In this document: positions 4,612 through 53,009 of the stretch, one piece after another
How the letters are laid out: every line of letters begins with the position of its first letter
Position numbering within the stretch: the first letter of the stretch is position 1
DNA from: Amphibalanus amphitrite
Taxonomy: Eukaryota; Arthropoda; Thecostraca; Balanomorpha; Balanidae
Direction of reading: 5' to 3'
DNA length: 64,000 nt
NCBI RefSeq assembly: GCF_019059575.1
Contig: NW_024882038.1
Coordinates: 186,001-250,000, forward strand
Translations under genes and position numbers: made by a program
Notes under the pieces: model-generated
The model's database searches: none
Seen by the model: only the letters and a program-made list of their open reading frames with translations
What the model was told of the DNA's origin: nothing

Positions 4612-4768
4612 CATAGGCGGCGAAACGGGGGAGCACCGGGACACCGTGCATGCCCCCTTTGATTTTGCCATTTTAACATTAGCCCTATGGGCGTTGCATG
4701 GAACGAATGAGACCAAAAGTCGGTAGTGCCCCCCTCCCCCGTTAATTGGAGGTGTTCCGCCACCACTG
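4612..4768. mobile_element. Short hAT-like MITE, copy 1
   Basis: A 157-bp element that is clearly homologous to the one at 40122-40287. Both share the interior phrases TTTTAACATTAGCCCTATGG and GACCAAAAGTCGG. The ends are inverted: CATAGGCGGCGAAAC at the left and GTTCCGCCACCACTG at the right. The flanks are TTATGAAG (4604-4611) and TTATTAAG (4769-4776), an 8-bp target duplication with one mismatch, as expected for hAT-type insertion. There is no coding capacity. The second copy independently fixes the boundaries. Confidence 0.8.
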
Positions 4769-17464: not shown

Positions 17465-17689
17465 GTAAGCGTACCCCCTGTCTCCGTCTCAGCTGACCCC
17501 GCCGAACCCGCCATCCGCTCCCGCCAGAACCGCCCCGCTCGCGCCATTTCCATAATGGAGCTATCCATGGGCGCGCCACATTTGTAAATTGGAGAAAAGC
17601 CAATTATTGTCGCTGGCTTCCATATGGTACCGGGTGTCGCCGTATATGGTTCGGTTACCTCAAGGGGTCTACTGGGGGTTGATGTATAT

Positions 17690-18662
17690 CCCGCGCACCG
17701 ACGGGGGGGCGGATATCCACCCCCCCCCCCTGAGGTTTTTCGCGGATAGCATTTGGGTGCGACTATTCTCTCATCAATTTTACACATGTTGTGCAAGTTT
17801 GAACCTCCTAACTTTTAAGGTCAGGTCACCAGGTCACTTTGAATGACCCAACCTCAAGTCACTTTTTTGCAACTTTGTCACCGTGCCATAGCTACAGTAG
17901 ATGTCGGAGGCCTTTGAAAGTCGCAGGATGTTATTAGGTAATTAGTAGCTACAATTTGTATATCTCGGAATTTTGATGTCGGTGACCTAAGGTCAGGTCA
18001 ATTTCGCGACCTCCCCATTATAAGTCAATGGGGGAAAAATCAACTCCCTGTTTTTACCACTAAAACGGGTCGGAATGGTTCCAAATACCATACATGACTT
18101 CATATAAAATCAACCTTCACTACCTTGAGGTCTGTTTTGCTGTTGGGCAGCTATAAGGTCATGTGACGTCATCAAAGGTCGCCAGCGGTTTTTTGCCAAT
18201 AACTCCGTACAGGAACAAGATACAGCCGCGCAGATGGTCTCATTGTGTTCAGCTCGTCAAGACGCATCGAATGATATACATGATGACCTCGAGGTCACGT
18301 GACCTGAGGTCAACCTTTGACCTTGACCTTTCGAGGTCAAGGTCAAAATTCGATGCGGATTGACGAGAGGATCACGAAGATGCCCTTAGTTTGTTCCTAT
18401 CTTGACTAATTCGAAAGTTATTCGAGAAAAACTCTATCCATATCAAGCGCCGCCATTTTGACTTTTTCGACCCCTGTGACGTCATCTTTGACCTGACCTG
18501 AAAATGGCCTAATTAAAAATTGTAGACCTTGTCCGTGCGTATCTGATGCCGTTTACCGCTTGTCGCTATCTTGCTTCGTTCTCGAGATCTCAGGGGGGGG
18601 GGCGGTCATCCGCCCCCCCCCCGTCGGTGCGAAGTTGGCGCAGACCCCCGTCGGTGCGCGGG
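17690..18662. mobile_element. piggyBac-like non-autonomous element, copy E1
   Basis: The termini are inverted: CCCGCGCACCGACGGGGG at the left and CCCCCGTCGGTGCGCGGG at the right, flanked on both sides by ATAT (17686-17689 and 18663-18666). Just inside each end is a G-run/C-run palindrome (left core GCGGATATCCAC, right core GCGGTCATCCGC). The right end carries a second copy of the terminal repeat separated by 13 bp. The interior is full of GGTCA/TGACC motifs (for example 17819-17842 and 18285-18345) and has TGACGTCA at 18164 and 18477. There is no transposase frame. It is related to the elements at 19492 and 51019 and lies in the opposite orientation, judged by which end has the doubled repeat. 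Confidence 0.75.
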
Positions 18663-18666
18663 ATAT

Positions 18667-19487
18667 GGTTCAGGGAGTGTCTCAGTTTCTGGCTCACGGG
18701 TACCCGCTTGGTGACGATGGATAGGGGCAGGCGAATAATAGCGGAGAGCCGGAATAGCGACCGGCGGCTAGCGCATGGCGTAAGGAATAAGGATGGAGGA
18801 GACGACGGGTTCAGAGGAGCTCAGTGAACGTTCAATCTTCAAAAATAGCATCTGCGTTGCTTGGTAGGTTATAGGGCTGAACGGAAGACAGCATTTGAAG
18901 GAGCCTGCCTATATGTGTAGACGGATTAGTAAGGGCTCTAAGTTTACTTGTTTAAATTCCGATCGGAATCGTCATCGATACACAAACTAATTGAATAGCT
19001 TGCGTTCCTAGCTCAGGACCCGGTTCAGTGAAAGTGCTACTGATAACCTCCCGAGATGGATTAGATGTGTCCCGACTCACTCGTCAAAACACGTCCCAGC
19101 CGTGAAACGGTATTGGTTCTAACCGACTTCGGTTTCTACACCGTGGTTAATCAATTCGTCTGATCTAAATTGTTACGAAACAGTTTGATACGGAGCGTGT
19201 GTATGGGCTCTTCTATCGGTCAGGCTGATTAGGAGTACATAACTGAGTTGATCGAGAAGTCATCTGTAGTTACAAACTGTTAGTTAGACAATGGATCATG
19301 AACACGGGTGCCTCCTTTCATTTTAACTAATGGTAGGGATTTTATAACAAAATTCGTAAGCATTTTGAGATATTCGATCACTTCTCATGGCCATTGGCCA
19401 TTCAGCAAATAATCACTTTTCTCCTTGATATTAAAAAAGTTCGGCTGTTTGTGTGGCACCTCTTTTGAAGTGCTCTTCGGTTATCAC
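18667..19487. other. Spacer between two related elements, no gene seen
   Basis: About 820 bp of ordinary sequence separates copies E1 and E2. No open frame with splice or start context and no repeat structure was seen. Confidence 0.45.
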
Positions 19488-19491
19488 ATAT

Positions 19492-20667
19492 CCCGCGCCC
19501 CGCTGGGCTATTCAGCCATACGCGCCCTGCTAGGGGGGGCAGATTCTGCCCCCCTGTCTAACTTCCGAACCGATGGTCGTAGAAAGACGGGGAAAACGGC
19601 AATCGAAAGCTCTCAACAAGGCGGATCTTAAGAGCCCAAATTTTTTTGCTTAAGTAGGTCAGAGGTCAGGTCAAGGTCAGGTCAAGGGTACAAAATGCAA
19701 GTTTCTACAGTATTGGCCTTGCACCGTAGTTGCCGAAGAATGGACTGAGACTGATTGCCCAAAACGTGTTCTTAGACTACCAAGACAATATTCGTTGCAC
19801 ACAATGTCATTCAAAGGTCAAGGTCAAGGTCAGGTCAGGTCAGGTCAGGTCACCAAAAACAAAATATAGAAAAGGGCAGGTGCGACACATGTTTTATGGG
19901 TCATTTTACTCATGGAATTCAATAGGCACACTCAATAAGTGATATGGACCACCTCTGGATGAATTTCAGGTCGAGGTCAGGTCAAGGTCAGGTCAAGTGA
20001 GGTCAAATTTTGAAGTTGGTTGTTAAGGCCTAAAAAGGTGTCTATCCGATGCAGTTTTTCACGGCGAATCGAATGGTGCTATTTTTATTTCCGTACGAGG
20101 TCTAGAACTTCCAAAACAATCATTTTTCAAAATTTTTGTGTGTTGTGACGTCATAAAATTTTGAATAACTCCCACATTTTTGAACCGATTCTTCTAAAAA
20201 TTGGTATGTAGGTGCACATAGACCACTTCTCTGACATATATTCCGGTTTTTTCGATAAACTCAAAATTTTGGATTTTATAAATATGATCCCAAAAAAGTC
20301 AGTTTTTTGGAAAAATTTTGGCCAAAATCCAAAATTTTCAAAAAACCGAGATAGCCATTTGATAGACAAAGTAGAATCACGTATAACCTTTTTTGTTACG
20401 TCTTGATTCCTTTTAAAAATGAAGAAGTTAGCGGCGTTTGAAATTTTGCCGTTTTTTAGGCGAAAATGGCGAACATGACGTCACTAAAACATCAATTTCT
20501 CAAAAATTTTCCGACGGATTTCGCTCAAATTTTCAGGGAACGTGTCAAATTGATGTATGATAAGGTACTGAAAGTTTGACGTCGCTGGCGTAACGCGTTT
20601 AGAAGTTATTGGCGAAAAACGGGAGGGGGGGGGGCAGATTCTGCCCCCCCCCCCAGCGGGGCGCGGG
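19492..20667. mobile_element. piggyBac-like non-autonomous element, copy E2
   Basis: The ends are CCCGCGCCCCGCTGGG and CCAGCGGGGCGCGGG, flanked by ATAT at 19488-19491 and 20668-20671. The left end has a doubled terminal repeat (CGCGCCCCGCTGGG, a 13-bp spacer, then CGCGCCCTGCTAGGG). Terminal hairpins consist of G-runs and C-runs around the palindrome GCAGATTCTGC at both ends (about 19534-19557 and 20624-20653). Inside there are seven GGTCA motifs in 37 bp at 19816-19852, further clusters at about 19669-19690 and 19969-20005, and TGACGTCA at 20146 and 20476. The right half aligns by eye with E3 (shared phrase ACATATATTCCGGTTTTT allowing one mismatch). There is no coding capacity. Confidence 0.8.
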
Positions 20668-20671
20668 ATAT

Positions 20672-29339: not shown

Positions 29340-29790
29340 ACTGGTGACTCACCATATAATAACTGGTGACTGCTTTCTTTCATATAAAAATACATCGGGC
29401 ATGGAGACTGCATGTGAGCACATAAACGCATCTATGGTGACTGCATCTCAGAACAGGAAAGTATCACCGGGCTGGCTCAGTGACTGCATCTTGGCACATC
29501 AGCGTATCGAGAGACTGCATCTGAGCACATAAACGTATTGCATCGCTGGTGACTGCATGCTGTCACAGGAAACTATCATCGGGCTAGGTGACTGCATCTT
29601 ATCACATAAACGTATCACTTTGGTGGGTGACTGCACGTTAGCACACAAACATATCACAAGGCTGGTTGGCTGTATCTTAGCACATAAACGTATCGTTAGG
29701 CTGGGTGACTGCATTTTAGCATGCTCGTATGAACGTATCGTAGTGTGGGAGATTGCATGCCGTTGCTAGAGCGCATCGTCGGACTGGCTT
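29340..29790. repeat. Degenerate minisatellite, roughly 36-40 bp units
   Basis: A phrase close to GGTGACTGCATCTTAGCACA followed by TAAACGTATC and a short GGGCTGG-like spacer recurs roughly every 36-40 bp for about 450 bp. The clearest units are near 29495, 29585, 29630, 29670 and 29700. Units differ by substitutions and small indels, so the array is old. It can be read open on both strands, which explains the open frames here; I do not believe it codes. Confidence 0.8.
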
Positions 29791-40121: not shown

Positions 40122-40287
40122 CATAGGCAGCGGAACGGGGAGGCCGGAGGGCACCGGGGCATCGTGCCCCCTGGCCCTTTGATTTTGGCATTTTAACATT
40201 AGCCCTATGGGCGTTGCATGGAAAGAATGGGACCAAAAGTCGGCAGTGCCCCCCCCCCCCTCAATTGAAGGTGTTCCGTCGCTGCCG
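40122..40287. mobile_element. Short hAT-like MITE, copy 2
   Basis: A 166-bp element homologous to the one at 4612-4768. The ends are CATAGGCAGCGGAAC and GTTCCGTCGCTGCCG. It is flanked by a perfect 8-bp target duplication, CTTTAGCC (40114-40121 and 40288-40295). The interior has the shared phrase TTTTAACATTAGCCCTATGG and a long C-run at about 40249-40260. It is non-coding. In the proposed gene model it lies in an intron. Confidence 0.88.
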
Positions 40288-50700: not shown

Positions 50701-51018
50701 GCAAAAGTTAGCACCCAGTAGAACCCTACGGTGCTTATAATGCTTTACGGTGTGTGTCAGAAAACCTCTATCCCGACACTGTCAGCCCGGCTGGTGTGGG
50801 TCCGCCCAGGTCCGCCCTCCCGAATGCCACAGCTTTGGCTCCCATGGTGATAAGTGGAAGTGATCGAGGCTCTTCTTTGTTGGCCATCTCAACTATTTGG
50901 GTCATCTCATCTCCGAAGATTTCTCATTAGATGGTGTTCATTTAGGTGCCGTTAGGTTTACTGATCTTGATAATAAAGATATGTTTTCACCAAAACAATT
51001 CAGTTATTCAATAATTAA
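47709..51018. other. Presumed intron, no exon seen
   Basis: No splice-flanked open frame was found. A loose repetition of CTGTCAGAAGCTGTGACAGG-like phrases lies at about 50454-50605. A perfect nuclear-receptor-type direct repeat at 49847 is listed separately. Confidence 0.4.
49847..49859 (+). promoter_or_regulatory. DR1-type AGGTCA direct repeat
   Basis: AGGTCA-A-AGGTCA is a perfect DR1, the spacing known to bind HNF4/RXR-type nuclear receptors. The sequence match is exact. Function here is only inferred, since such a short motif can arise by chance or come from an old repeat fragment. Confidence 0.35.
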
Positions 51019-53005
51019 CCCGCGCCCTGGTGGGGTCTGTTTATAACGCGACCTGGGCCTCGTTTCATAAAGCTCTGCCGTAACTTACACCTTTCCGTAA
51101 TTCACACCCTTTCAAACTACGGAGCGCAAATGAAGCCGTTTCACAAAGCCACAACTGGAATTGTTTACACCTCCGTAACTAAGCACATTTGCGTAGTTGC
51201 TGTAATTTATCAAGCGTCCTACAAATTACAATTTCATGTCAACACTTATTTTTTACGAGAAATTATAAAACAATTAATGTTAAATTTTAATCTTAAAAAT
51301 TATTTATGAAAAAAACAAAATTGATATTGATGACCATCCTTTATTAAATCAATATATTGAAAACAGCAGAAAGCCAGCGAAGCAGAAGTGCCTAACTACG
51401 AAAGTGGCGCGGCGCGGCGAATAAACAAAATTCCGATAGTGGCCACAAAAAGCGACTGGTACAGAAGATTTGCAGTTTCTTTTTCACATTTGGGCTGTTC
51501 TTTCTTCCTCACCAGGCTCAACGTTATAAAATATATCAAAAATTGGCTTCGAATCTTCACATTAATTCAAATTCACGCAACATTTTTGTGCGTAGTTTAC
51601 ACCACTCATATCAAGAACTTGATAAAATATTTGGCGTTAATTACGCCGTTTTATGAAACCCAAATGGCATCAATTGGTCCGGAATCGAGAATTTGCCGTA
51701 AATGAAGCTCCGTAATTTCGATAGCGTGAATTACTCCGGTCTCCGGCTTTATGAAACCGAATTGGCATCAAATACGCCAAATCTGGCATAATTGACGGAA
51801 CGCCGTAAGTAATTCCTTTTATGAAACGAGGCTCTGGTGGGGGGGGGGGGGCTATTTTTTGCCCCCCCCTCGTATCTCCGAAACTACTGGACGGATCCTC
51901 AAAATTCAAACGGCGTTCGAAAGGCCTGTCAAATTTGTCGAAGGAAACCAAATTTCATTGACCTCGGGGTCACCGATGACGTCACAAGTCAGGTCAAAGA
52001 TGAAATGTTTCACCGTTCACGGGTCTACTAGGGAATGCGCTATAACACCGAGGAAAACGCATTTTGTCGAGAATCAGCGATAGGGCGTCAGTTGCCTAGT
52101 AGATATGTTGCTATTGGAGGTCACTGACAATACCAGGTCAGGTCACAGGTCAGGTCACCAAGGGTCACAGGTCAGGTCACATGAGCCCAACTTTACTAAG
52201 GTTGTGTGATGCATGTTTTATAGCCAATTTTTCATTTCCAACTCAATGGTGTTGGTTATAAGACTATCAGGTACGGCTTAGGTTACTTTCTGGTGAAGGT
52301 CAGGTCAACGTCAGGTCAAGGTCAGGCCAAAAAAGGTCAAACTTTAAAGTTAATAGTTTTGCATAAAATGGGTATTGATTCGATGCAGCTCGTCACGGGG
52401 AGTCTAATGAAGGTCTTTGTTTTGCGCTACGGCGTCTAGAATTGCTAAAAGTTGAGTTTGAAAATTTGACGTCATCAATTTTGAACAGTTTTTTCGCTAT
52501 AACTTCGCCAAAAAAGAGGTATCAATCTAAAATTTGGTATGTGGATGGAAGGCGGTAAGGACTATCACATATATTCCGGTTTTTGCGAAATTCAAAAAAA
52601 AATTGGATTTTTCTACTATTATATCCAAAAAATCTATTTCTTGATTTTTAGGGGTCAAAATAAAAAAAAAATCAAAAATCCGAGATAGCAGTTTTGTAGC
52701 CCTGTCAATTCTACAGCTTTTATGTCTTAATCATTTTTCTGTATTTGCAAAGCTATAGGCCTGACAGCTCTTCCCGCGAAACCCTTTTTTGGGTCGAAAA
52801 CGGCAGAACATGACGTCACTCTGACGTCATTTTCGGCCAACCTATCATAGCTTTTGGAAAAGTTTTCGGTCACAATGTGTAAAATTGATGTCCGGGAGGG
52901 TACTGAAAGTTTGGTGACGATCGGCGCAGTGGTTCTGGAGATATATTGAAAAGTCTGGAGGGGGGGGGGGGGCAAAAAATAGCCCCCCCCCCACCAGGTC
53001 GCGGG
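51019..53005. mobile_element. piggyBac-like non-autonomous element, copy E3 (interrupted)
   Basis: The ends are CCCGCGCCCTGGTGGGG and CCCCACCAGGTCGCGGG, flanked by TTAA (51015-51018 and 53006-53009). The left end has a doubled terminal repeat, and the second copy is split by a nested insertion at 51057-51832. Without the insertion E3 is about 1.2 kb, like E2. Terminal hairpins consist of G-runs and C-runs around CTATTTTTTG at the left and CAAAAAATAG at the right, exact complements of each other. GGTCA clusters lie at about 52135-52180 and 52297-52342, and TGACGTCA sites at 51977, 52467, 52811 and 52822. The right half aligns by eye with E2. No transposase is present. Confidence 0.8.
51057..51832. 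mobile_element. Nested palindromic element inside E3
   Basis: Inverted termini GCCTCGTTTCATAAA and TTTATGAAACGAGGC (with one extra T) bound a 776-bp AT-rich insert that interrupts the left terminus of E3. Subterminal variants of the same phrase recur inside, such as TTTATGAAACC followed by (A/G)AATGGCATCAA at about 51648 and 51751, and TTTCACAAAGCC at about 51140. The flanks are CCTGG (51052-51056) and TCTGG (51833-51837), a possible 5-bp target duplication with one mismatch. The open frame at 51388-51705 on the + strand has no recognisable transposase motif. The superfamily is unassigned. Confidence 0.72.
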
Positions 53006-53009
53006 TTAA

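Follow-up and report, generated by a model that had tools for sequence, protein, structure and literature searches.

What kind of mobile element do three sequences with CCCGCG ends, E1, E2 and E3, represent in the genome of Amphibalanus amphitrite, and what is the role of the G-rich hairpins just inside their ends? The three lie in a 64,000-nucleotide stretch of contig NW_024882038.1 (positions 186,001 to 250,000), hereafter referred to as the window and numbered from its first letter. A first-pass annotation of the window had described them as a transposon family with an implied piggyBac affiliation, which the TTAA duplication, the CCC...GGG tips and the piggyBac-like asymmetric ends described below bear out. 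The family is almost certainly a TTAA-type DNA transposon, and very probably belongs to the piggyBac superfamily. E1, E2 and E3 themselves are likely non-autonomous cut-and-paste elements resembling miniature inverted-repeat transposable elements (MITEs), moved in trans by a transposase recognizing CCCGCG. The family is a known kind of element in a new form, exhibiting the end layout of the Trichoplusia ni (T. ni) piggyBac in other letters, a minority ATAT target and a large load of AGGTCA motifs.

The three elements of the window

The extents and ends proposed for the three elements were confirmed in the sequence. Each starts with CCCGCG, ends with CGCGGG, and is bordered by two equal 4-bp flanks. 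E1 (17690-18662, minus strand, 973 bp) lies between ATAT flanks at 17686-17689 and 18663-18666, and E2 (19492-20667, plus strand, 1176 bp) between ATAT flanks at 19488-19491 and 20668-20671. E3 (51019-53005, plus strand, 1987 bp including a nested insert) is flanked by TTAA at 51015-51018 and 53006-53009. None of the three contains a stop-to-stop reading frame of at least 150 amino acids.

E3 owes its length to a nested insert of other repetitive DNA, about 780 bp long, in its left end. This insert (approximate limits 51057-51833, with no strand assigned) exhibits the inverted ends GCCTCGTTTCATAAA...TTTATGAAACGAGGC. Positions 1-38 and about 816-1987 of E3 align to an uninterrupted relative of 1201 bp (L048), the long part with 91.9% identity over 1186 bp. 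E1 is 95.7% identical across 915 bp to another copy (L046).

Copy number and target sites

The family is not limited to three copies, as had been supposed. We searched the genome (807.6 Mb, 2,644 contigs) using reversed patterns as controls. The tip pattern CCCGCGNNCNGNYGGG exhibits 14,494 + 14,504 = 28,998 matches, against 257 + 272 = 529 for its reversal. This corresponds to roughly 14,000 copies if both tips are retained in each copy, and to more if tips have been lost; assuming about 1.15 kb per copy, the family would occupy about 16 Mb, or 2% of the genome. TTAA is found directly outside 12,205 + 12,266 = 24,471 of the 28,998 tips (reversed control, 0), thus the boundaries of copies elsewhere coincide with the CCCGCG ends.

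A stricter search required A or T as the first flank base and four G after the tip. The first 100 places exhibited 90 TTAA, 3 ATAT and 2 TTAT flanks, with one each of ATAA, ATAG, TTAG, ACGA and AAAA. Over the genome, ATAT followed by the tip and four G is found 252 times and TATA in the same position 9 times; ATAT is therefore a specific minority target rather than a reflection of general AT-richness. Among 100 listed ATAT ends, 58 make 29 facing pairs within 16 kb, and in 24 of these the distance is 1.01-1.22 kb; a facing end that is unrelated would be met within 16 kb with a probability of about 0.0025. Two further copies exhibit CTAT (L042) and TTAT (L064) at both sides. The ATAT flanks of E1 and E2 are genuine but unusual. 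It should also be noted that these two ATAT-flanked elements are separated by 829 bp, though ATAT borders about 1% of comparable ends. A survey of animal piggyBac elements likewise describes rare non-TTAA duplications, neither CCCGC nor ATAT being among those reported in the part of its text available (PMC10813416).

ATAT also precedes a piggyBac-type tip of another family at position 257 of locus L004 (contig C264). This tip, CCCTTTATCGGGC, is the one that L011 has on its right. Use of ATAT may therefore extend beyond the CCCGCG elements.

We compared 16 full elements, namely E1-E3 and 13 fetched copies. Similarity is about 92-97% among copies with the same end type, whereas copies of different types have their longer interior stretches in common at about 75-81%. 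With non-coding sequences in E1-E3, inverted ends, a high copy number and a fairly uniform size, the elements have the properties of MITEs, but at about 1.0-1.2 kb without nested inserts they are larger than the usual MITE of less than 500 bp (PMC2872659). A close parallel is provided by the CMITEs of Acropora, which are piggyBac-type TTAA MITEs with interiors common among families, tandem arrays and a genome background of piggyBac elements; they differ in their size of about 100 bp, their CC[C/T]T tips, the known autonomous relative (AmiPB1) of one CMITE family, and the lack of G-run palindromes in the portion of the report available (PMC2872659). No description of the present family was recognized in the literature among the matches listed, though a match may exist in Repbase or Dfam.

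The back-to-back junction CGCGGGTTAACCCGCG occurs at 746 places in the genome (reversed control, 0), and was also seen at locus L079. The chance expectation, roughly estimated from the TTAA density of the window, is about 83, and the observed number is about nine times higher. Elements therefore often share one TTAA, or joined copies have been duplicated together.

Asymmetric ends and the 27-bp step

The asymmetry of the two ends of an element had been overlooked. G-run/C-run inverted repeats are indeed present inside both, but the ends are not equivalent, one of them having a second copy of the tip motif at a distance of about 27 bp from the first. In the short end, a G-run comes immediately after the tip motif (about bp 5-15), and then the core and the C-run. 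In the long end, the palindrome comes after the second copy of the tip motif.

The short end of E1 (17690-17730, plus strand) is composed of the tip CCCGCGCACCGAC, a G-run (17703-17709), a core with one mismatch and a C-run (17720-17730). Its long end is on the right (18593-18662, minus strand), with the second tip motif at +27 (about 18621-18631) and a palindrome at 18593-18622 (stem 13, loop 4). E2 has its long end on the left (19492-19554, plus strand), with the second tip motif again at +27 (about 19523-19533) and a palindrome at 19534-19554 (stem 9, loop 3); its short end (20625-20667, minus strand) comprises the tip and a palindrome at 20625-20653 (stem 13, loop 3). The long end of E3, also on the left, is the one split by the insert, with its palindrome at 51839-51869 (plus strand; G-run 51839-51851, core CTATTTTTTG, C-run 51862-51869). 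The short end of E3 (52963-53005, minus strand) has the tip and a palindrome at 52963-52992 (stem 11, loop 8).

Another E3-type copy, L052, contains a shorter insert at the same place. A repeat with GCCTCGTTTCATAAA inverted ends is thus found in two lengths at the same site in E3 and L052, and the insert and its E3-type carrier seem to be a composite that multiplied together.

We scored the 43 ends at hand for a second tip motif with a threshold of our own. Seventeen were called long. The second motif is at +27 in 15 of them and at +26 in an E3-type end; the last (L058, +31) is a short end passing the threshold by chance. The long ends missed by the threshold include those of L042 and L020 (+27) and the interrupted ends of E3 and L052 (+26). 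Genome-wide, the long-end pattern exhibits 6,816 + 6,822 = 13,638 matches, against 5 + 6 = 11 for the control. This is 47% of the number of tip matches and therefore fits one long end per element. Within the first 100 long ends listed, all from contigs C1 and C2, the offset is 27 in 82, 26 in 12 and 30 in 2, and 21, 22, 33 and 35 in one each.

This layout is that of the T. ni piggyBac, in which bp 34-63 of the right end are almost identical to bp 7-35 of the left end, a step of 27 bp (PMC7351741). The palindrome of that element is bound by a dimer of C-terminal domains (CRD), full activity in cells requires an asymmetric pair of ends, and the authors proposed that the right end binds an additional transposase dimer at an inner position; the asymmetry is termed "an enigmatic feature" in the same structural study (PMC7351741). 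The CCCGCG family and the T. ni piggyBac have in common the TTAA duplication, asymmetric ends and CCC...GGG tips, the latter being also a described feature of piggyBac (PMC7351741, PMC2533014), as well as a tip-side motif repeated 27 bp inward at one end only and followed by a palindrome. On the other hand, the letters are unrelated beyond CCC, the palindrome of the barnacle-genome family is flanked by a G-run and a C-run, E1-E3 lack a transposase gene, ATAT occurs as a minority target, and the T. ni element is 2.4 kb long and autonomous, unlike the CCCGCG elements. The piggyBat of Myotis lucifugus also has differing ends, with a repeated tip-side motif and then an imperfect palindrome at one of them (PMC11707139).

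Since the layout, including the 27-bp step, is that of the T. ni piggyBac, the functional parts of its ends may be transferred to the present family. A piggyBac transposase acting in trans would recognize the CCCGCG tips, cut there and join the element into TTAA, or occasionally into ATAT. The tip motif would be the site of the transposase core domain and the palindrome that of a CRD dimer. The extra tip motif about 27 bp inward would allow the long end to load two transposase dimers, in line with the proposal made for the T. ni right end. Judged from these layouts, we lean slightly towards this palindrome and two-dimer reading.

One alternative retains the palindromes as binding sites and regards the 27-bp agreement with the T. 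ni piggyBac as a coincidence, or as the inheritance of one founding layout. Some spacers begin alike, with a short GGTCTG-like start, which suggests that the end types are related, and the agreement concerns a single external element with a step of 27. However, the spacers are largely diverged among end types and their length was kept at 27, or 26 in E3-type ends. Furthermore, in the T. ni right end, an addition of 5 bp or a randomized second motif approximately halves activity (PMC7351741). This alternative is possible, if somewhat doubtful.

About 14,000 natural pairs of short and long ends, of several types, provide nearly the same spacing and mostly a palindrome in different letters. The two-dimer model thus becomes testable by comparison across a family rather than on one element, with ATAT as a second target to set against TTAA.

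Palindromes and their cores

In 36 of the 43 ends, a core is enclosed by a G-run and a C-run of at least 5 letters each. The seven exceptions are four ends with mutated runs (L031, L043, L044, L066), one with a broken C-run (L079) and the two insert-interrupted E3-type ends. The cores had been described as palindromic or mutually complementary. Several are self-complementary beyond chance, with shuffle values of 0.043 for TGTTTGAACA, 0.026 for CCATTTTGG, 0.009 for CGGATATCCG, 0.012 for CAGAATCTG, 0.011 for CAGATTCTG and 0.006 for ACAGAATCTGT. The description fails in part for the left core of E1, CGGATATCCA, which has a mismatch (the copy L046 has CGGATATCCG), and for the E3 core CTATTTTTTG, which exhibits no self-complementarity beyond its G/C arms and is matched only by the opposite end.

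The first-pass annotation also suggested that the fold itself is maintained. In this alternative, the palindromes work as cruciform DNA or as an RNA hairpin, for example stalling replication or guiding excision, and selection keeps the fold. The self-complementarity of several core types agrees with it. So does the comparison of ACAGAATCTGT (L032) and its neighbours with the E2-type palindrome (GCAGAATCTGC, of the CAGAATCTG type), in which there is one change on each side and the pairing is kept. Folding of the window ends as DNA, relative to shuffles, gave z values of -1.25 (E1 left, not significant), -3.93 (E1 right), -2.33 (E2 left), -2.88 (E2 right), -2.08 (E3 left) and -3.40 (E3 right), five of the six being -2 or below. 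A palindrome bound by protein, however, gives the same symmetry without folding. The E3-type core forms an unpaired loop of 8, and several cores are no better than shuffles. The lengths of the G-run and the C-run are uncorrelated (r = 0.09), though unequal arms can still pair. Maintenance of a fold is thus quite unlikely, and the hairpins are probably double-stranded palindromes bound by the transposase, acting as such and not as folded single strands.

A second alternative assigns no role to the palindromes, which would be inherited inverted-repeat ends with homopolymer runs changing by slippage. Run lengths vary among near-identical copies, and ends within one type mostly carry one core by descent, so that the number of independent core observations is small. 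However, inheritance of a terminal repeat does not require distinct cores that are each somewhat self-complementary within one end, and the place of the palindrome beside the tip motif matches that of the piggyBac binding palindrome (PMC7351741). We therefore regard the absence of a role as unlikely.

Several observations nevertheless weigh against the reading of the ends as piggyBac tips followed by transposase-binding palindromes with a 27-bp step, and the result of the partner search given below is to be added to them. Two cores, CTATTTTTTG (0.109) and CGGATGACCG (0.162), are not self-complementary beyond chance, nor are the single-copy variants CCATTTTG (0.231), CTATTTT (0.716) and AGCAAAGG of L067 (1.0). 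The length of the G-run differs among near-identical copies, with a range of 5 to 16 in the ends at hand, and the distance between tip and core is therefore not constant. No repeat of the tip motif at +27 was found in nine autonomous piggyBac elements of this genome, belonging to about five families, with right ends trimmed by 3 bases. In favour of the reading, however, two autonomous elements (L001 and L027) carry a palindrome in one of their ends, at about bp 15-34. The left-end motifs of piggyBat are at bp 11, 55 and 99, that is in steps of 44 bp unlike those of the CCCGCG family, and its right end has no corresponding palindrome in the description available (PMC11707139). Finally, the fourth tip base of the present family is G (CCCG), in disagreement with the CC[C/T]T hallmark (PMC2872659). 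This hallmark is better regarded as frequent than as obligatory, since the survey of animal piggyBac elements includes other tips such as CACTA (PMC10813416).

Two further palindromes were observed. In several L040-type copies, the short end contains a second, stronger one at about bp 62-104 (stem 15, loop 3 or 4; CAAAAACGGCGGCGC...GCGCCGCCGTTTTTG). Another G-run/C-run palindrome, GGGGGGGGGccatgggggccatggCCCCCCC, is located at 850-880 of the window without a CCCGCG tip, and is perhaps a relic of a related end.

Search for an autonomous partner

The genome was searched with the transposase profiles PF13843 and PF13842. The former, corresponding to the DDD transposase, exhibits 116 matches, and the latter, a zinc-ribbon profile, a single match on contig C317. 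An autonomous piggyBac partner with the same ends, as envisaged in the first-pass annotation, did not emerge: no CCCGCG-tipped transposase element was found at 41 of the 116 PF13843 matches, mostly inspected with about 1.5 kb of flank. At several of these 41 loci no tips of any kind were found, and the tips identified at the others are of six other kinds (CCCATTAGTG, CCCATTAGCGC, CCCTTTACCGGGC, CCCAGATCTGCCC, CCCTCGCACGACC and CCCAGGAACGCCC). CCCGCG tips do occur near four loci (L020, L023, L071 and L077), where they are not positioned as the transposase element's own ends. The partner transposase may lie among the remaining 75 PF13843 matches, be very divergent, or be extinct.

TTAA duplication is not unique to piggyBac, and TTAA MITEs of the Kolobok superfamily exist. 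TTAA alone thus does not single out piggyBac, and the result at the 41 loci would be expected if another TTAA-duplicating superfamily such as Kolobok mobilized the elements, their piggyBac-like end layout being a case of convergence. The CCC...GGG tips argue against such an origin, as do the asymmetric ends with a 27-bp repeat of the tip motif and then a palindrome as in the T. ni piggyBac, and we consider it most improbable.

Two long copies were considered as candidate partners and rejected. The E1-type L079 (2.7 kb) is an ordinary copy containing another element, and the ATAT-flanked L083 (4.6 kb) is an E3-type copy containing a coding sequence like that of a non-long-terminal-repeat retrotransposon, as judged by eye from its frame. 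The element inside L079 (about 570-2250) is about 1.7 kb long and has long inverted ends. At L020 (C8:31206-35312), CCCGCG ends are found on both sides of an autonomous CCCATTAGTG piggyBac; one piggyBac family has apparently inserted into another.

AGGTCA-rich interiors

The interiors of the elements are rich in GGTCA, as had been noticed. On both strands together, E1 contains it 19 times, E2 18 times and E3 19 times; in 500 dinucleotide shuffles of each, the means were 2.2, 2.4 and 3.5 and the maxima 7, 8 and 10, respectively. The count exceeds all 500 shuffles in every one of the 16 elements. Among hexamers occurring at least 40 times in these elements, AGGTCA shows the strongest enrichment, 13-fold relative to the rest of the window. 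In E2, AGGTCA-rich arrays extend over 19650-20010 (plus strand), and the 17 AGGTCA of the whole element are all on the plus strand. Similar arrays are located at about 17815-17850 and 18265-18350 in E1, and at about 52115-52345 in E3.

When overlapping matches are counted, the motif AGGTCAGGTCA is found 258,952 times in the genome and its reversal 1,178 times. The 100 sites listed come from the first 474 kb of contig C1; 42 of them lie downstream of a same-strand CCCGCG at a distance of up to 1.3 kb, compared with 21% of random positions. The other 58 do not fall in forward-strand copies whose left tip is intact, and may belong to reversed, decayed or differently ended relatives. Related or decayed elements must therefore far outnumber the counted tips. 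The abundance of AGGTCA is by itself a remarkable feature of this genome.

AGGTCA is the half-site of nuclear receptors. Were the arrays functional half-sites, the elements might have spread through host receptor-driven transcription or open chromatin, and the genome would have been seeded with very many AGGTCAGGTCA sites, a ready-made hormone-responsive network. Between same-strand AGGTCA motifs of the 16 elements, the commonest arrangement is an overlap by one base (56 cases), followed by spacings of 4 (30 cases), 0 (19), 5 (14), 6 (13), 1 and 2 (10 each) and 3 (1). An overlap of one base corresponds to no classical dimer site, which weakens the case for nuclear receptors, though a spacing of 4 is also common. 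A receptor-driven spread appears very improbable.

Other repeats in the window

Two other repeats were noticed in the window. A tandem repeat with a 39-base period is found at 29548-29703, its copies being 72-73% alike across 78 bases. A repeat of 86 bases with a C-run at its end is present at 4655-4740 and 40175-40260, the two copies being 94% identical, and is probably another dispersed element.

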